Shown: piece after piece, positions 4,843 to 25,173 of the stretch | Numbering within the stretch: position 1 is the first letter of the stretch | Layout of the letters: every line of letters starts with the position of its first letter | Assembly (NCBI GenBank): GCA_950054195.1 | Contig: CATLPG010000031.1 | Span: 1-33,859, forward strand | Length of the DNA: 33,859 bases | Direction: 5' to 3' | From: an uncultured Saccharospirillaceae bacterium | Lineage (GTDB): Bacteria > Bacteroidota > Bacteroidia > Flavobacteriales_D > CAJJDF01 | Notes under the pieces: model-generated | The model's input: only the letters and a program-made list of their open reading frames with translations | Databases searched by the model: none | Told to the model about the DNA's origin: nothing | Made by a program: the position numbers and the translations under genes

Positions 4843-7800
4843 ATGAAAAAAATAATACTATCCCTTTTACTTACGCTACCGCTTTATTCATTGTTCGCTA
4901 ATGATTGTTCATCGGTAATTCCTATCGAATGTGGTATTGTATATTCTGGTAACACAACGGGTTCAACAAATGATATTTCTGATTGGCCATGTGTAACGTT
5001 TAATAATGTTGCTGGAGACGATATATATTCCATAACAGCGCCTACATCAGGAGAGATAGTTTTACACCTAAATAAATTAACTGGTGCTGATATGGAAATT
5101 GGAATTATGAATGCGTGTGATGAAGATTCGTGTATTGATAGAACATCTTTCTCTTCATCATTAACCGTAAATAATCTTACTCCAGGAAAAACGTATTATA
5201 TAGTTGTTGATGGAGACGAAATAGGAGATGAAGGAGCTTATGAAATTTGGGTGGATTGCCAAGAGCCAGAAAGTAGCTGTGGAACACCAATCAATATTGC
5301 ATTAGAATCAACTTACTATGGAACAACTACTAATGGGCCATCAAACATAAACTCATATGCATGTACATCAGATAGTACGTATGGAAAGGAAAAAATACAC
5401 AAAGTACTTATTGCTCAACCAGCAGATTTAACTATAACTGTAAGAAATATTAATGGAGTTGATCTTGATATTGCATTACTGAGTGCTTGCCACAAAGATT
5501 CGTGTATTGCTCAAGGAGATTCTGTAATCAATGCATTTAACTTAGATGCAGGAGAGTATTATGTAGTTGTAGATGGAGCAGGAGGAGATACCTCAGAGCA
5601 AGGAAATTACGAGCTACTAGTAAGTGGCTCTCCAAATGGTCAAGCCACATTTGGAACTTGCGGAAATCCAATCCCTTTAGTTTGTGGAGTTCCTTACAGC
5701 GGAAACACCACGGGAATGTTTAACTTCCATGAGGAATACAGTTGTAATGTTTTTGATAACGATGATATAGGACCAGATGCTGTCCATTCATTTGTTGCCC
5801 CACCTTCTGGAGGTGTAACAGCGATCTTAACTAGACCATCGTCAAGTATTGATATGGAGGTAGCAATTACCGAAGGTTGTTCATCAGATTCTTGCTTAAA
5901 TAAAACGTTTACAGGAACTGGTCAATCTGTATCAACAAGTGTTACAGGTTTAACTCCTGGAGAAACATATTATGTTATCGTAGATGGTGATTTAGCAACA
6001 GATTTTGGTGCGTACACAGTACAAATAGAATGTTTTGAAGGTGATTGTTCAGAACCAATACCAGTACAGTGTGGAACTTCTTATGAAGGGAGCACAGAAA
6101 CAGGAGGACAATCAAGCTTTAGTGTATACCCTTGTATTGTAGGAGATACACTTGATGGACCAGAAAAAATACACCAAGTAACCTTAACCCAGCCTGGTAC
6201 AATTACAGCAAGTGTTACAGCAATAGGTACAGGGGCTCCAGATTTAGATATCTTACTTCTTCAAGGATCGTGTAATGCATCGTCTTGTATCGAATGGGGA
6301 GATAACTCCATTACAAGAACAGGTTTGTCAGCAGGAACATATTATGTAGTAGTTGATGGGTTTTCATTGTTTGATGCGGGGCCTTATCGTTTAGATATTA
6401 ATTGTAGTGATGGAGGTAGTAACTTTGGAACATGTTTTAACCCTATTCCCATTAGTTGCGGAACACCATACAATGGAACAACTATTGACGGTCAAACTAA
6501 TTTTACATCCTATAGTTGTGGTCCTCAACAACACCAAGGAAAAGAGAAAATTCATGAGTTTACATTAAACCAAACATCTGATATAACTGCTAGTATAAGT
6601 GGGCTAGGAGGAGAAGATTTAAACTTATTTTTATTAGACGCATGTAACCCAACATTATGTAATACAGGAGGAGATACAAGCTTAACAGCGTCTTCTTTGC
6701 CAGCAGGTACATACTTTTTAGTTGTTGATGGGGCAGGTACTGATACATCTAATCAAGGAAGTTATTTCTTGGAACTAAACTGTACTCCTGTAGGTCCAGT
6801 TTTAGGAGATTGTGGTAACCCAATACCTCTGACATGCGGATCAACAATTAATGGAACTACTAGTAATGGTGAAGCTAACTTTGGTCAGTACAACTGTTCG
6901 CTAGATCAACATGCTGGACCAGAGAAAGTACATGAGTTTGTTATTACAGATACTACGGATATTTATGCTTCTATTACTGGACTAAATGGTGAAGACTTAG
7001 ACTTAATTTTACTAAGCTCCTGTGCACAAAACACGTGTGATACAATTGCGGACTCTATTCTTTCTGTAACAGGGCTTTTGCCAGGCACCTATTATTTAGT
7101 TGTAGATGGTCATGGTACCGATACATCTAATAATGGAGCTTATTCGCTACTGTTTAACTGTAATGCTAGTGGGCAAACTAGTGGTGATTGTAGTACGCCT
7201 CTATCACTAGTGTGCGGAGTGCCTTTCACGGGGAATACAACAGCTTCAGCGAATAATTATTCTACGTACAGCTGTAACAGTAACACATATTCTGGGAATG
7301 AAAATGTACATGAACTAACCCTAACAGATACTACTGATATTGATGTTTCACTAACTAATATAAATGGAAAAGACTTAAACCTTATACTGCTTAGTTCTTG
7401 TGATACTACAGCCTGTATACAAGCGGCAGATACACTTTTATTAGCTAATTCTTTACTTCCGGGCACATATTATATAGTAGTAGATGGAGCAGATACAAAC
7501 GATTTTGGTGCTTATACACTAAATTTAAATTGTACTCCTTCTTCTAATCCTAATGGATGTGATGATTTATTTTTCTCTGAATACATAGAAGGTAATAATC
7601 AAGACAAAGCATTAGAGATATACAACCCAACGGATTCAACAATTTCATTGGCAAATTATACAGTAGAATTCTATACAAATGGAGCAACGGTGGCTAGTAG
7701 TACATTGTCGTTGAGTGGAAATATTCTTTCAAATAGTACTTATGTTATCGCAAATCCAGATGCAAACGCAACCATTTTAGCAATAGCAGATCAAACAGAT

Positions 7801-8733
7801 GCATCGCTTAGCTTTAATGGAAATGATGCAATTGTTTTACGAAGAGGAATTGACAATGCTGATATTATCGGTGAAATAGGAAATGATCCTGGAACCTCGT
7901 GGGTAGGTGGATCAGTTAGTACCGAAGATCAAGTGCTTATTAGAAAATTTAATGTTCAAAAAGGACTCAATACTAACCCAACATCTTTTGATCCTTCTGT
8001 ACAATGGGAATCAAAAGCGTTAAACGATTGGTCTAATCTTGGGGAGCATCAAAATGCATGTTTTACTTGTTTATCAGGTCCAGTAAATCAAACAATAAAC
8101 GATACTATTTGTGATAACGAAACTGTAGTTATTAATGGTGTGTTAGTTGATAGTAGCGGAACTTATATTGATTCTACCTACAGTAGCGATGGATGTGATA
8201 GTGTTGTTACAATTAATCTAGTTGTTAATCCTGCACCAACGGTTGTCGTAAATGCGGATACTGATACGATAGAAGTAGGAGAAACAGTTAACTTCAATAC
8301 TAATGGATCTACTGCAACATCTTATTCATGGGATTTTGGTGATGGCTTCACGTCTTCTTTAAATCCTGTTTCACATACCTTTAATTCAAATGGAACTTTT
8401 GAAACTGTTGTAACTGGTGAAGCAAATGGCTGTACTGTTTCAGACACAATAACGATAGTAGTGGGTAACGGAGTGGGAATTGATGATATGTTTTTATCTA
8501 CAGTAAACATTTATCCAAATCCAACGACAGGGTTAATAACTATAGAGATAGAGGAAACAACTTCTGAAAGTGTTAGCTTAACAATTCAATCCATTAATGG
8601 GAAAACATTAATGAGTAAGCAAATTAATCAAAGGAAAACGGTACTGGATGTATCTGATATACCTAATGGAATTTACTTTATAACGATAGTAGATAAAGAC
8701 CAGATAGGTCGATTTAAAATGATTAAGTCTTAA
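4843..8733 (+). CDS. Giant secreted protein: seven Cys-rich repeats, lamin-tail-like and PKD domains, T9SS tail
   Basis: A 1296-aa exported protein. A signal peptide covers residues 1-19. Residues 20 to about 900 hold seven repeats of about 120 aa with the pattern 'C..PI.L.CG', a central 'YSC', 'D(L/M)(D/E)..(I/L)L..C...C' and a final 'GTYY(V/I)VVDG ... Y.L...C'. They resemble pre-peptidase C-terminal (PPC-like) beta-sandwich domains, and the paired Cys suggest disulphides. A lamin-tail-like domain (starting at FFSEYIEG) spans about 905-1065. Then come one 'GTY.DSTYSSDGCDSVV' module, a PKD domain (about 1135-1208, SYSWDFGDG) and a T9SS type A sorting domain (about 1215-1296, NIYPNPTTG). The protein is expected at the cell surface or released. 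No catalytic domain is visible; adhesion or matrix binding is a guess. It is a paralogue of the next gene. Confidence 0.88.
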   Translation: MKKIILSLLLTLPLYSLFANDCSSVIPIECGIVYSGNTTGSTNDISDWPCVTFNNVAGDDIYSITAPTSGEIVLHLNKLTGADMEIGIMNACDEDSCIDRTSFSSSLTVNNLTPGKTYYIVVDGDEIGDEGAYEIWVDCQEPESSCGTPINIALESTYYGTTTNGPSNINSYACTSDSTYGKEKIHKVLIAQPADLTITVRNINGVDLDIALLSACHKDSCIAQGDSVINAFNLDAGEYYVVVDGAGGDTSEQGNYELLVSGSPNGQATFGTCGNPIPLVCGVPYSGNTTGMFNFHEEYSCNVFDNDDIGPDAVHSFVAPPSGGVTAILTRPSSSIDMEVAITEGCSSDSCLNKTFTGTGQSVSTSVTGLTPGETYYVIVDGDLATDFGAYTVQIECFEGDCSEPIPVQCGTSYEGSTETGGQSSFSVYPCIVGDTLDGPEKIHQVTLTQPGTITASVTAIGTGAPDLDILLLQGSCNASSCIEWGDNSITRTGLSAGTYYVVVDGFSLFDAGPYRLDINCSDGGSNFGTCFNPIPISCGTPYNGTTIDGQTNFTSYSCGPQQHQGKEKIHEFTLNQTSDITASISGLGGEDLNLFLLDACNPTLCNTGGDTSLTASSLPAGTYFLVVDGAGTDTSNQGSYFLELNCTPVGPVLGDCGNPIPLTCGSTINGTTSNGEANFGQYNCSLDQHAGPEKVHEFVITDTTDIYASITGLNGEDLDLILLSSCAQNTCDTIADSILSVTGLLPGTYYLVVDGHGTDTSNNGAYSLLFNCNASGQTSGDCSTPLSLVCGVPFTGNTTASANNYSTYSCNSNTYSGNENVHELTLTDTTDIDVSLTNINGKDLNLILLSSCDTTACIQAADTLLLANSLLPGTYYIVVDGADTNDFGAYTLNLNCTPSSNPNGCDDLFFSEYIEGNNQDKALEIYNPTDSTISLANYTVEFYTNGATVASSTLSLSGNILSNSTYVIANPDANATILAIADQTDASLSFNGNDAIVLRRGIDNADIIGEIGNDPGTSWVGGSVSTEDQVLIRKFNVQKGLNTNPTSFDPSVQWESKALNDWSNLGEHQNACFTCLSGPVNQTINDTICDNETVVINGVLVDSSGTYIDSTYSSDGCDSVVTINLVVNPAPTVVVNADTDTIEVGETVNFNTNGSTATSYSWDFGDGFTSSLNPVSHTFNSNGTFETVVTGEANGCTVSDTITIVVGNGVGIDDMFLSTVNIYPNPTTGLITIEIEETTSESVSLTIQSINGKTLMSKQINQRKTVLDVSDIPNGIYFITIVDKDQIGRFKMIKS

Positions 8734-18148: not shown

Positions 18149-18682
18149 CTAAATATTGATAGGAATATTATATAAACATCTCACTCTTTTTCCTTCTAAA
18201 ACAGCTGGAGTCCATTTTTTCATAGCTAAGAGGGTACGTTTAATTTCAATAGCAAACTCTTTAGGCGTGTTTTTAGAAAATGTAAAATTGGTTAAGGCAC
18301 CATTGGTTTCAACCACAAATTGCGTTACAATTTCACCTTTAAACTCAACATCTTTAGGGAATTTAAATTCTTTTTGGAAATCTAAGAAAAGCGTAGTGTC
18401 TCCGCCTGGGTATTTAGGATAAACATCAACTTTTGAGTAAACCTGATTTTCAGCAGTTCCTTGCGAACTTTGTGGAGCAGATAAGGCTTTAACAATACTT
18501 GAAGTTCTTTCATCTAAACGAACAATTGCTTGTGTTAATGCTTTGTTTTCAGCTCTTAAAGTAGAAACTTCTTTTTCTAGTGTTTCCATTTTGCCTTGCA
18601 TTTGTCCTACATCTTTTTGACTAGCACAGGAAAACAACAAAATTCCACTAGAAACAACAACTACTTTTTTAAAACTCTTCAT
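18149..18682 (-). CDS. Lipoprotein with coiled coil and TonB-type C-terminal domain
   Basis: A 177-aa protein. The N-terminus ends in LLFSC (Cys19), a clear lipobox. Residues about 25-65 form a heptad-patterned coiled coil (MQGKMETLEKEV...LRAEN). The last 75 residues match the TonB C-terminal fold seen in Bacteroidota: GEIVTQFVVETNG, a helix, KKWTPAVLEGKRV and a final YNIPINI strand. True TonB proteins have an N-terminal transmembrane helix and a proline-rich periplasmic span; both are missing, and a lipid anchor takes their place. It may therefore be a periplasmic TonB-like accessory and not an energy transducer. It is divergent from a TPP-riboswitch-controlled TonB-dependent receptor, which may or may not be functional pairing. 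It is followed by the TPR lipoprotein gene after 20 nt. Confidence 0.82.
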   Translation of the reverse strand: MKSFKKVVVVSSGILLFSCASQKDVGQMQGKMETLEKEVSTLRAENKALTQAIVRLDERTSSIVKALSAPQSSQGTAENQVYSKVDVYPKYPGGDTTLFLDFQKEFKFPKDVEFKGEIVTQFVVETNGALTNFTFSKNTPKEFAIEIKRTLLAMKKWTPAVLEGKRVRCLYNIPINI

Positions 18683-18717
18683 AAGATTTTATTTATTAAT
18701 TCTTTTACTTTCAGCTA

Positions 18718-18747
18718 TGAAGGTAAATAAATTTTGGGCGTCATCAA
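18718..18747 (-). promoter_or_regulatory. Promoter of the TonB-domain lipoprotein / TPR operon
   Basis: On the minus strand a TTG (18747 to 18745) is followed after exactly 19 nt by TACCTTCA (18725 to 18718), four of six fixed -7 positions. Transcription would start about 30 nt before the ATG at 18682. It overlaps the opposing riboswitch promoter. Confidence 0.5.
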
Positions 18748-18763
18748 AAAAGACATAATTTTG
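18734..18763 (+). promoter_or_regulatory. Consensus promoter for the TPP riboswitch and receptor gene
   Basis: TTG (18734-18736), a 19-nt spacer and TAATTTTG (18756-18763) match the Bacteroidota promoter consensus TTG-N19-TAnnTTTG at every fixed position. The RNA should start near 18768-18770, only a few nucleotides before the riboswitch aptamer. Confidence 0.85.
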
Positions 18764-18773
18764 GACTGAACTT

Positions 18774-18846
18774 ACATGGGGTGCCAACTTTTAATGGCTG
18801 AGATTATACCCGTTGAACCTGCTGTGGTAATTCATAGAAGGGAACT
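18774..18846 (+). ncRNA. TPP riboswitch (THI element)
   Basis: The conserved aptamer core is present in order: GGGGTGCC (18778-18785), GCTGAGATTATACCC (18797-18811), GAACCTG (18815-18821), GTAAT in the P5 loop, and GGGAACT (18840-18846). P2 pairs GCCA (18783-18786) with TGGC (18795-18798), and P5 pairs CTGTG with CATAG with one G-U. A conventional P1 immediately flanking the core is not evident. The element senses thiamine pyrophosphate and lies in the leader of the receptor gene at 18919, so that gene should be shut down when TPP is plentiful. Confidence 0.96.
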
Positions 18847-18918
18847 AGAACTAAATGTGTCTATCTGTTTTAGATTTCACCATTTTTAGTTGATTGCTCC
18901 ATGTGCAATTTTATTTAA

Positions 18919-21321
18919 ATGAAAATTATTTTATCTGTTGCTTTTGCATCAATTGTTGGAGTACTATCATCACAATTTAGTGTTTCGGGAAAAGTTACTA
19001 ATGCCAAAGGAGAACCTTTGGAATGGGCTACAGTATTTGTTGAAGGCGGTTACGGCTCATCAACAAATACAAAAGGAGAGTTTATAATTAAAAACCTAAA
19101 AGCAGGTGATTATGAACTAAAAACTTCGTTTGTAGGTTATGAAACCCAATTTACATCTATTGAAGTAACTGAATCAATAACTAACTTAACTATTCAACTC
19201 AATCAAAAAGATTATATAGCTAATGAGGTGCTGGTTACAGCTACGCGAGTAAACGAAGAAACACCTGGAGCTTACAGTACAGTAACGCATGAAGAACTCG
19301 AAAAGACAAACTTAGGGCAGGATATACCTTTTCTATTGAATACAACACCTTCTATTGTTGTTAACTCAGATGCTGGTGCAGGTATTGGTTATACAGGTAT
19401 GCGAATAAGAGGAACAGATATTACACGTATTAATGTTACCATTAATGGAGTTCCCCTAAATGATCCAGAATCTCATGGAGTGTTTTGGGTTAATATGCCC
19501 GATTTTGCATCTTCTGTTCAGAATATTCAAGTACAAAGAGGTGCAGGAACGTCAACCAATGGAGCAGGAGCGTTTGGAGCTTCGGTCAATTTGTTAACTG
19601 AAAACTTATCAGAGAAATCATACGGAGAGCTTAATATGTCTGCCGGATCTTTCAATACAACTAAAGCAACTGCTAAATTTGGAACAGGGTTAATCAAGAA
19701 TCATTGGGCGTTTGATGGACGTTTATCTTCTATACAATCGGATGGGTATATTGATCGTGCTACTGCAGATTTAAAATCATACTATTTATCTGGGCAGTAT
19801 GTGGATGATAAAAACAGTTTAAAGTTTATTACTTTTTCAGGTAAAGAGATTACTTACCAAGCATGGGGTGGCGTACCCGAAGATTCGTTAGAAACAAACA
19901 GGACATACAACGAATATACTTACGATAACGAAGTAGATAATTACCAGCAAACCCACTATCAGTTATTCTACAACCGTATATTAAGTGAAAATCTTTTGGC
20001 TAATGTTGCGCTCCACTATACAAAAGGACAAGGTTTCTTTGAGCAGTATAGAGAGGGTGATGATTTAGCAGATTATGGGATAGATCCAGTAATTACGCCT
20101 AATGATACTATTACTTCAACTGATTTAATCCGAAGAAGATGGTTAGATAATGATTTTTATGGTGTTGTTTATTCGTTAGACTACACACCATCTAACAAAA
20201 TGAATATCATTTTTGGAGGAGCAATAAACTCATACGATGGAGATCATTTTGGAGAAGTCATTTGGGCAAGGTTTGCAGGAGATTCTGAAATTAGAGATCG
20301 TTATTACGATAACAATGCTCAAAAAGTGGATATTAACAGTTACGCTAAGTTAAATTATAGCTTAAATAATAAATTAAGTCTTTTTGGAGATATACAATTA
20401 AGAACAATTGATTATACCTTTTTAGGGTTTGATAATGATTTAAATAATGTTACGCAAAATGCACGTTACACATTTGTAAACCCTAAGGCTGGTTTTAATT
20501 ACTTTATGACTGCCAATACAAAGTTTTATGGTTTGTTTGCGGTAGCGAATAAAGAGCCAAACCGTGACGACCATACAGAGTCAACACCAACGAGTAGACC
20601 AAAACATGAGTCATTAAATAATGTGGAGTTAGGATACAGAACTACACAAAGAAAATATGCCTTAGGAATAAACCTCTATTACATGCTTTACGATAATCAA
20701 TTAATTCCAACAGGAGAATTAAATGATGTTGGAGCTTCTGTTAGAACAAACATTAAAACATCTTACCGTAGAGGAATTGAAATTGATGGAGGTGTTCAAT
20801 TGACAAAAGGTTTGTTATTAACGGGTAACGTAGCACTTTCTCAAAATAAGATTCCAGAATGGACAGAGTATGTTGATAATTGGGATACCTGGGGGAAAGA
20901 TACCGTTGAGCATACCAATACGGATATTGCTTTTTCACCAAGCATAATTGCAACAGGAATATTAGAGTTTAGTCCGTTTAAACAATGGAACATGAACAAA
21001 AGCAACAAATCAGACTTTAGTATTTCGTTGGTTTCTAAATATGTTGGTAGACAATATCTAGATAACACACAAAGCACGGAGCGTTCGCTTGATCCATATT
21101 TTGTAAATGACTTACGTTTTAATTACTCAAGGACATTACCAAAAGGAGTGGAGCTTCAATTTTTTGGAGCAGTAAATAATTTATTTAACGAATTATACAG
21201 TGCTAACGGTTGGACGTATCGTTATTCAACAGGAGGAGAGTTTTATCAAATATCAGGATATTACCCACAAGCCACTACAAACTTCTTAATAGGACTTAAT
21301 TTGAGGTTTAGCGGGAAATAA
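18919..21321 (+). CDS. TonB-dependent receptor, probable thiamine or thiamine-precursor transporter
   Basis: An 800-aa outer-membrane receptor. A signal peptide (about 1-18) is followed by a carboxypeptidase-regulatory-like domain (about 20-105: GKVTNAKGEPLEWATV), typical of Bacteroidota receptors. A TonB-box-like NEVLVTATR lies near 112-120, the plug domain spans about 120-235 (MRIRGTDITRINVTINGVPL), and a 22-strand-type beta-barrel fills the rest, ending in LIGLNLRFSGK. Substrate inference comes from the TPP riboswitch in its leader; riboswitch-controlled TonB receptors of Bacteroidota are proposed to import thiamine or its precursors. No thiamine synthesis gene is adjacent. Leader length from the predicted RNA start is about 150 nt. 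Confidence 0.92.
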   Translation: MKIILSVAFASIVGVLSSQFSVSGKVTNAKGEPLEWATVFVEGGYGSSTNTKGEFIIKNLKAGDYELKTSFVGYETQFTSIEVTESITNLTIQLNQKDYIANEVLVTATRVNEETPGAYSTVTHEELEKTNLGQDIPFLLNTTPSIVVNSDAGAGIGYTGMRIRGTDITRINVTINGVPLNDPESHGVFWVNMPDFASSVQNIQVQRGAGTSTNGAGAFGASVNLLTENLSEKSYGELNMSAGSFNTTKATAKFGTGLIKNHWAFDGRLSSIQSDGYIDRATADLKSYYLSGQYVDDKNSLKFITFSGKEITYQAWGGVPEDSLETNRTYNEYTYDNEVDNYQQTHYQLFYNRILSENLLANVALHYTKGQGFFEQYREGDDLADYGIDPVITPNDTITSTDLIRRRWLDNDFYGVVYSLDYTPSNKMNIIFGGAINSYDGDHFGEVIWARFAGDSEIRDRYYDNNAQKVDINSYAKLNYSLNNKLSLFGDIQLRTIDYTFLGFDNDLNNVTQNARYTFVNPKAGFNYFMTANTKFYGLFAVANKEPNRDDHTESTPTSRPKHESLNNVELGYRTTQRKYALGINLYYMLYDNQLIPTGELNDVGASVRTNIKTSYRRGIEIDGGVQLTKGLLLTGNVALSQNKIPEWTEYVDNWDTWGKDTVEHTNTDIAFSPSIIATGILEFSPFKQWNMNKSNKSDFSISLVSKYVGRQYLDNTQSTERSLDPYFVNDLRFNYSRTLPKGVELQFFGAVNNLFNELYSANGWTYRYSTGGEFYQISGYYPQATTNFLIGLNLRFSGK

Positions 21322-23772: not shown

Positions 23773-25173
23773 ATGGAGGATTGCTTTGGACAACAGGGAT
23801 GGAGAGAGTTCAGTCAAAATAGGATAAACATACTAACTGATTACGACAGGGCTTTAGTCCAAAATATTAATAGACCTGTTAGAACATCTCATGGTAAAGT
23901 TCTAGAGGCTTCAATAAGAAAATGGCTCTCTGAATTTTTACCTAAAAAATATAGTGTTACTTCAGGGTATATTATATCTGATCTAAATTTTTCAAATGAT
24001 AAATTATATCATTATGACGTTATAGTTTACAATCATCTTGAAGCTCCAATATTATGGGTGGAGGGAGATAGCGACATGAGTAATCAAGGAAAATTTAGAG
24101 CTATTCCAGCTAGATACGTAATTTCGGTATTCGAGATTAAATCAAGATTCAACTCAAGCAATATTATTGCAACGAAATTGAAATTATCTGAACTATTAAA
24201 TATTAAAGATCAGCTAGATGATAAGTTTAGTTCTGGAGTAATTTTTGCTGAATTAAAAGAAATAGATAATAATGATAAAAACGCACTACATAAGTTGTCT
24301 GAACTTACTTCTGTTCCAGGTTTTATAGGTGGAATAATTCTAAGATATGAAAAGGATTCTCATATTACAGGGCTGGTTAGTAGAATTAAAAGAGAAGATG
24401 ACAAAAATAATGGAAACACAGACTCTAAAAGGGTAACTCCCTTGGCAAGACCTTTATCTGATATAGAGTTATACAAAAATGAAGATGGGAACATAACTTT
24501 AGCAGGAGGTATTAAAGGTGCTGGGACTAAAATTATGATAATTGGTGAAAACACTTGGGCAATGGGTAAGCAGTATTTTGTAGACATTGAAAGTGGTGAT
24601 AAAAGTATAAATATAGCTTGGTCAAAGAGTGGATTTGCTGATTTTTCACATAGATTACTCAATGCTCTTGAAGGAATGCCCATTATGTCCGAAAACTATC
24701 CTCTTTTTGGGCAGATCTTTGACAATGTAAACTTTAGACCAGCGCCATTACAACCACCAACCGCTATTGAGGGAAAGCCTTTTATAGATGTAGAATTAGA
24801 GGATATTAATGGAGAAAAAAAGGAGATTTTCTCTAAAGAAAAAAAATCAGGGATTAAATATATTTTAAAACTCAATAACATTAGTAAACATGATGTAACA
24901 TTTATCAAAGAGGAGTTTTATGATACACTCGAAGTAAAGGGAGGTAGATCTGATAACAGAGAGTATAATATCATAATGAAAGAGAAAAAATCTATTGAGG
25001 ATATTATTGAAATATTGAAAAAGTCCCCAGTTGAAATTAAGCATAGGTTAGTATACAAAGATATAGAGGGTAGTTACTTTGCTGTAGAATGCTTGATAAA
25101 AATAGGTGATAAAATTGATCTTAAAATTCTAAATGAAGAAGATCTTGCTAATTTTCATAAGAAGAACACTTAA
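23773..25173 (+). CDS. DUF6602-like protein with predicted PD-(D/E)XK nuclease-type core
   Basis: A 466-aa protein with no signal peptide. Its N-terminal 130 residues look like the DUF6602 type and fit the PD-(D/E)XK fold: Glu45 in HGKVLEASIRKWL, a LP..Y.V..GYI strand, Asp82 in YDVIVYN, and Glu121-x-Lys123 in VFEIKS. These are the residues expected to bind metal in such nucleases. The middle (about 140-300) contains an IGGIILRYE strand and a GENTWAMGKQYF segment, and the last about 140 residues look like a separate strand-rich domain; I recognise neither. Homologues with such cores are scattered in accessory regions, which fits a defence or mobile-element role, but no activity can be claimed. 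The next gene follows after 39 nt in the same direction and may be a partner. Confidence 0.6.
   Translation: MEDCFGQQGWREFSQNRINILTDYDRALVQNINRPVRTSHGKVLEASIRKWLSEFLPKKYSVTSGYIISDLNFSNDKLYHYDVIVYNHLEAPILWVEGDSDMSNQGKFRAIPARYVISVFEIKSRFNSSNIIATKLKLSELLNIKDQLDDKFSSGVIFAELKEIDNNDKNALHKLSELTSVPGFIGGIILRYEKDSHITGLVSRIKREDDKNNGNTDSKRVTPLARPLSDIELYKNEDGNITLAGGIKGAGTKIMIIGENTWAMGKQYFVDIESGDKSINIAWSKSGFADFSHRLLNALEGMPIMSENYPLFGQIFDNVNFRPAPLQPPTAIEGKPFIDVELEDINGEKKEIFSKEKKSGIKYILKLNNISKHDVTFIKEEFYDTLEVKGGRSDNREYNIIMKEKKSIEDIIEILKKSPVEIKHRLVYKDIEGSYFAVECLIKIGDKIDLKILNEEDLANFHKKNT

Follow-up and report, generated by a model that had tools for sequence, protein, structure and literature searches.

A diverged TPP leader before a probable thiamine importer gene of a Bacteroidota bacterium, with a candidate switch between the 5' end of the mRNA and a strand near the start codon

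How might a TPP riboswitch control a gene whose mRNA has no Shine-Dalgarno sequence to hide? The question is raised by the leader of a TonB-dependent receptor gene in the window, by which we mean the whole 33,859-nucleotide stretch analysed, from an uncultured member of the Bacteroidota. The receptor has an ortholog in all six genomes of the family, its own included, and of the 80 best among 586 related stretches, 73 carry a core resembling a TPP aptamer in front of the gene, as judged by a pattern test. The genome gave no match to thiC, thiE or thiamine pyrophosphokinase (two models), so the cell probably depends on imported thiamine. The features of the locus are collected in Table 1.

Table 1. 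Features of the leader and of the gene behind it, in window coordinates.
Feature	Position	Strand	Remarks
Bacteroidota-type promoter TTTG-N19-TAATTTTG	18733..18763	+	exact match; expected RNA start ~18768
TPP aptamer	18767..18860	+	core GGGG (18778) to GGGA (18843); RF00059 match under gathering score
Strand E	18773..18782	+	edge of the aptamer at its 5' end, also the 5' strand of P2; paired with D in the fold without ligand
CAACU of the P3 arm	18785..18789	+	lengthens the alternative helix with 18888-18892; minimum-energy fold
AGUUG	18888..18892	+	pairs with 18785-18789 in the ligand-free minimum-energy fold
Predicted hairpin when D is free	18892..18910	+	stem of 18892-18897 and 18905-18910, most of D in its loop; pair probabilities 0.57-0.70 with the downstream region folded alone
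Strand D	18896..18905	+	pairs with E; located at -23 to -14 relative to the AUG
TonB-dependent receptor	18919..21321	+	Plug and CarboxypepD_reg-like domains; probable outer-membrane thiamine importer, substrate inferred

Several other genes were noted in passing. Elsewhere in the same genome (G000) a PnuC/PnuT-like transporter (C32:23009-23521, L192; PF04973, E 1.9e-38) has no detected TPP leader, and a short ORF beside it resembles, by eye only, a small thiamine-binding protein. In the window, the divergent neighbour of the receptor gene (18149-18682, minus strand) encodes a protein of 177 aa whose TonB C-terminal match is weak (22.6 bits against a cut-off of 24.6). The gene at 4843-8733 (plus strand) encodes a large product with the domains PKD, LTD and Por_Secre_tail, probably exported through the type IX system; the gene at 23773-25173 (plus strand) encodes a 466-aa DUF6602 protein and precedes a 180-aa ORF that has no match in Pfam.

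The promoter, called perfect in the first-pass annotation, is indeed an exact match, composed of TTTG at 18733-18736, a spacer of 19 nucleotides and TAATTTTG at 18756-18763. The same pattern occurs 4 times in the window against 2.6 expected, so it is not rare alone. What is unusual about this promoter is its placement, which is conserved across representatives of the leader clusters described below. TAnnTTYG lies at most 32 nt 5' of the aptamer GGGG in 40 of the 49 cluster representatives with enough upstream sequence for the count, versus 3.4% of background windows, and the commonest offset from GGGG, -14 (12 of the 40), is the window's own. In flavobacteria the box is placed at -12 to -5 (PMC9723704). 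The RNA is therefore expected to start near 18768, 5 nt 5' of the pairing strand and 10 nt 5' of GGGG, which makes the pairing strand nearly the 5' end of the RNA; the first reading of the sequence had put the start about 5 nt before the aptamer.

The aptamer itself was found by a permissive cmscan in a 501-nt search, in which RF00059 matched over model positions 1-105 with 44.5 bits (E 1.4e-7). The gathering score of this family, 54.3, is a curator's threshold and not a mechanism; because the match scores below it, the default Rfam scan of the window has no aptamer entry, and we therefore name the element a diverged TPP leader. The same-genus relative also falls below, at 42.2. Such scores are frequent in the order, where 323 of 399 genomes have a match at E 0.01 and 164 have one above the cut-off. 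Within the 3.27-Mb genome this is the sole TPP match with E below 0.8 (the next has E 0.85), and blastn against plasmids gave no matches.

The leader shares with RF00059 the conserved P2-P5 core (GGGGUGCC, CUGAGA, ACCC, GAACCUG and GGGA) and a location upstream of a thiamine-uptake gene, and differs from it in the low score and in the lack of a contiguous P1. The core columns, whose role we take to be ligand binding, are invariant in six of six family leaders, which are not independent since four come from one genus. No contiguous P1 closes the aptamer by a loose contiguous measure, the longest pairing at the edge being 3 bp and out of register, as expected from the first inspection of the sequence. 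The same measure gives 3 bp in the same-genus relative and at least 4 in 54 of the 62 representatives.

In place of P1, the aptamer edge has a distant partner. The first-pass annotation had pointed out that ACATGGGG (18774-18781) can pair with CTCCATGT (18897-18904), 14 nt before the ATG. This pairing stands as described and lengthens to a helix of 10 bp, UACAUGGGGU (E) with GCUCCAUGUG (D), of -17.1 kcal/mol. When the region downstream was shuffled with its dinucleotides kept, 4 of 2000 shuffles reached this strength, which ranks seventh among the 62 representatives. In the fold computed without ligand, E:D has a mean pair probability of 0.946. E:D and the aptamer are mutually exclusive, because E holds the 5' side of P2. 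Forcing the aptamer yields an ensemble 10 kcal/mol less stable than the ligand-free state, so a switch would need kinetic control. A search for intrinsic terminators between the aptamer and the gene (18600-19100) found none, with 0.2 expected; the expression platform that would have spoken against the proposed pairing is thus not seen there.

For the comparison with relatives, 132 aptamer candidates were reduced to 123 leaders by dropping second copies from the same genome, those without the GGGG anchor and those without a start codon at 15-320 nt. Shared 6-mers grouped these into 62 clusters, of which energy and position filters left 48, or 46 in the test of positions -13 to -1. Start codons are probably wrong in some leaders, for instance L026, L029, L034 and L117. 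A held-out set of 30 loci was drawn from a phylum-wide sample; 25 were used, forming 17 clusters, and the other 5 had no recognised core or start. The sets are biased to strong Rfam scorers and to orthologs of the window's receptor, the latter taken from the best 80 of the 586 related stretches.

Among close relatives the pairing is kept with other letters. In the same-genus relative (L042) both strands differ from those of the window and still pair, as UGUUAUUGGG with UCCAAUAACA, at -14.6 (33 of 2000 shuffles). Strands combined across the two species reach -12.0 and -10.6, versus -17.1 and -14.6 for their own pairs. In the sister genus, CUAAGGGGUG pairs with CAUCUCUUGG in four of four leaders. 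D lies at -23 to -14 in the window versus between -43 and -29 in L042 and the sister-genus leaders. The position of D shifts between relatives, and what is seen is therefore turnover of the pairing and not covariation of aligned columns.

The signal extends well beyond the genus. Over the 62 representatives, own pairs averaged -13.98 versus -12.24 (sd 0.21) for pairs made by permuting the partners, a mean equalled in 0 of 5000 permutations. The result was the same with non-coding sequence only (0 of 10000) and when partners were permuted only inside classes with similar edges (0 of 10000), and the reversed-edge control gave 1051 of 5000. The 17 held-out clusters gave -14.55 versus -11.91 (sd 0.57; 0 of 10000, reversed-edge control 1640 of 5000), in a set that is not fully independent of the first since 8 of its 25 leaders are of the thiS class, whose commonest pair recurs unaltered in 5. 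The upstream 14 nt of the edge alone, without GG, showed no excess (1811 of 5000), so the signal requires the junction with GGGG.

By class, the signal is present in the thiS class (0 of 5000) and in the class labelled 'other', to which the window's leader belongs (0 of 5000). It is absent from the Cytophagales-like and Flavobacteriales-like classes, where 4962 and 5000 of 5000 swaps were equal or better and where the edge is nearly invariant. RNAalifold predicted zero pairs for 25 Cytophagales-like platforms. Within-group pair counting, for which little sequence variation was available, found E:D paired in 97.4% of cells over 13 thiS leaders (2 double-sided changes, 21 of 500 shuffles) and in 97.6% over 21 Flavobacteriales leaders (1 double-sided change, 74 of 500). 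The check that the first reading asked for, covariation of the two 8-nt strands, is answered by the swap tests across clusters, in which strands differ between relatives and still match; two large lineages show no covariation. The absence of any support in relatives, which would have counted against the pairing, did not occur, and the design in which a 5'-edge strand pairs near the start is not peculiar to this mRNA.

Whether the pairing reaches initiation is a separate matter. No Shine-Dalgarno-like sequence is visible in GCAATTTTATTTAA before the ATG, as had been remarked at the outset. With D released, the hairpin listed in Table 1 would span -27 to -9; it is absent from the relatives L009 and L042. 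In the E:D state the predicted openness of -13 to -1, a region picked post hoc, rises from a mean of 0.40 to 0.76 and is up in six of six family leaders. The rise is seen in 25 of 46 leaders of the phylum-wide first set (p 0.30) and in 14 of 18 held-out leaders (p 0.006), which were not clustered. The openness of the AUG, of -10 to 10 and of -15 to 15 is unchanged across the 48 representatives, and at the window's own AUG the change is small, from 0.15 to 0.27. The idea that E:D always frees the AUG was accordingly rejected, having no support across the 48 representatives.

The window's D pairs weakly with its start region (-3.4 kcal/mol). Over 67 leaders, with the held-out ones unclustered, each start region finds a better complement around its own D than in swapped surroundings (0 of 5000), a signal that stems from the thiS and 'other' classes only (Cytophagales-like 2329 of 3000, Flavobacteriales-like 1226 of 3000). 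In many thiS leaders D overlaps CATTCC, the partner of the GGAATG that holds the AUG; this start-codon helix is paired in 87.5% of cells with 2 double-sided changes (71 of 500), and the cells with such changes are equalled in 2 of 500. In the Flavobacteriales leaders the hairpin around D is 90.5% paired without excess (93 of 500), and that around the AUG, over 21 leaders, is 93.9% paired with zero double-sided changes. It was observed in the alignment of these 21 leaders (A2) that the first receptor codons, ATGAaaaCAAGa (mostly M-K-T-R), complement UCUUGUU of the leader, with 93.9% of cells paired; coding sequence may be part of the switch there.

The presentation of D was also considered. Its apical-loop probability is 0.68 in the window and 0.00 in L009 and L042, and the distribution is bimodal, with 21 of 48 representatives at 0.5 or above and 22 of 48 above the local mean; the proposal that D is always in an apical loop was rejected. 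In leaders of the Algoriphagus/Cyclobacterium type (L045-L098) a CCCC strand, a potential partner of the aptamer GGGG, is presented by a hairpin in its apical loop. The stem of this hairpin differs in sequence from species to species, and an outer GGGUAAAC/GUUUaaCUC-like helix encloses the hairpin.

The reading that we prefer, and hold with moderate confidence, is that the leader is an OFF switch that senses TPP and governs a thiamine importer of the outer membrane. Strand E, at the beginning of the mRNA, would have two mutually exclusive partners. When TPP is absent, E:D would form and its helix would reach into the P3 arm, leaving the aptamer unfolded; D would be held 5' of the initiation region and positions -13 to -1 would be open, the ON state. 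If TPP were bound co-transcriptionally, ahead of the synthesis of D, the GGGG of E would be locked into P2. D would then be released, the region just 5' of the AUG would become structured (in the window through the hairpin from -27 to -9), and initiation would drop. The evidence is computational throughout, and what it shows directly is the aptamer match, E:D with its support in relatives, the lack of a recognised terminator and the lack of a Shine-Dalgarno-like sequence; we infer the binding of TPP, the direction of the response, kinetic control and the effect on translation. E:D, which ends at -14 in the window, might itself impede the ribosome. The earlier proposal of a long-range switch that exposes or hides the initiation region thus appears right in its first half, the alternative pairing, given the swap tests and the absence of a terminator, while the start-region step finds partial support and its role is plausible but unproven.

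The switch could be real and act instead on transcription, through a Rho-dependent or unrecognised terminator, or on mRNA decay. We consider this unlikely, and more serious than the other alternatives. In its favour, hairpins with a T run behind them occur in three leaders of other families (L168, L170 and L187), and in two of these, L170 and L187, the 3' arm is the pairing partner of E. The openness of the start is unchanged over the first phylum set, and in B. thetaiotaomicron the response of the biosynthesis operon is seen in its RNA (PMC5613172). Against these stand the count of intrinsic terminators in the window (none versus 0.2 expected), the position of D only 14 nt before the AUG, and the transport mRNAs of B. 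thetaiotaomicron, which the same account gives as unresponsive to thiamine. GGAG-like sequences also precede the ATG in L170 and L187.

A role for E:D in keeping the ligand-free aptamer open or in shielding the mRNA's 5' end, the start being controlled otherwise, for example by a D-presenting hairpin that contacts E, seems improbable to us. It would suit the apical-loop placement of D in 21 of 48 representatives, the window among them, and the Cytophagales-like leaders, where D mostly lies 40-60 nt upstream of the start; it fits less well with the window's family and the thiS class, in which release of D is predicted to close the start region. Least probable, with a very small chance in our estimate, is a decayed riboswitch whose aptamer no longer binds TPP and whose pairing in one species is partly chance. 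The sub-cut-off score, the missing P1 and the 10 kcal/mol in favour of the ligand-free state agree with decay, and with thiC and thiE not found the demand for regulation may differ. The core, however, is kept in all six family leaders, low scores are common in the order, and the sister species forms E:D from different letters. Both the OFF switch and its phylum-wide extension below are made less likely by the poor pairing of the window's own D with the start region.

The switching logic is classical, and the P1-less, 5'-terminal form without a Shine-Dalgarno sequence is a variant of it. Pairing of the aptamer edge with the platform in the absence of ligand is standard in sequestor/antisequestor switches, as part of Barrick and Breaker (2007, PMC2258182) describes, and there, as in the proposed switch, ligand frees the platform strand. 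The window leader differs in having no Shine-Dalgarno sequence to hide and in using the RNA 5' end and one side of P2, not the P1 helix, as the switching strand. The antiterminator-type leaders L170 and L187, of other Bacteroidota, pair the same 5' edge with a partner that precedes the start codon by about 25-40 nt. In them this partner forms the 3' arm of a hairpin with a T run after it, whereas no terminator was found in the window. Among the open-licence papers that the literature searches listed, no title or abstract opening describes the pairing reported here. A 2019 preprint by Costliow, Degnan and Vanderpool, whose title reportedly refers to control of transcription or translation, may already describe pairing of the E:D type.

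The TPP riboswitches of Bacteroides (OMthi, pnuT and thiSEGCHF) resemble the window in placing a TPP leader before an outer-membrane thiamine transporter, and in B. thetaiotaomicron the riboswitch-linked transport mRNAs were unchanged with thiamine, their mode of action being termed uncertain in 2017, according to portions of Costliow and Degnan (PMC5613172). A survey of 57 TPP riboswitches that includes Bacteroides data lists, in the part concerned, six as transcriptionally active, all from other genera (PMC12121620). Bacteroidota mRNAs lack Shine-Dalgarno sequences, and in F. johnsoniae structure close to the start and the bases upstream of it both tune initiation (PMC6847099).

We tentatively extend the preferred reading to the phylum, with less confidence than in the single locus. 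The Bacteroidota may have a widespread TPP platform whose switching strand is the mRNA's outermost 5' end. This strand would complete the aptamer or else capture a partner that lies mostly 20-50 nt upstream of the AUG, ligand thereby controlling initiation without a Shine-Dalgarno sequence. In the window's genus, E would have been freed from P1 and kept for P2 and the long-range pairing only, and in the Cytophagales-like leaders the captured strand would be a CCCC hairpin loop, giving a loop-to-5'-end kissing variant.

For annotators, the locus is a warning that weak-scoring, P1-less TPP leaders can bear a maintained switch. The switching pair can be read from the sequence in many relatives, which opens direct mutant tests in culturable species, and these would reveal what a translational riboswitch controls when a Shine-Dalgarno sequence is absent.
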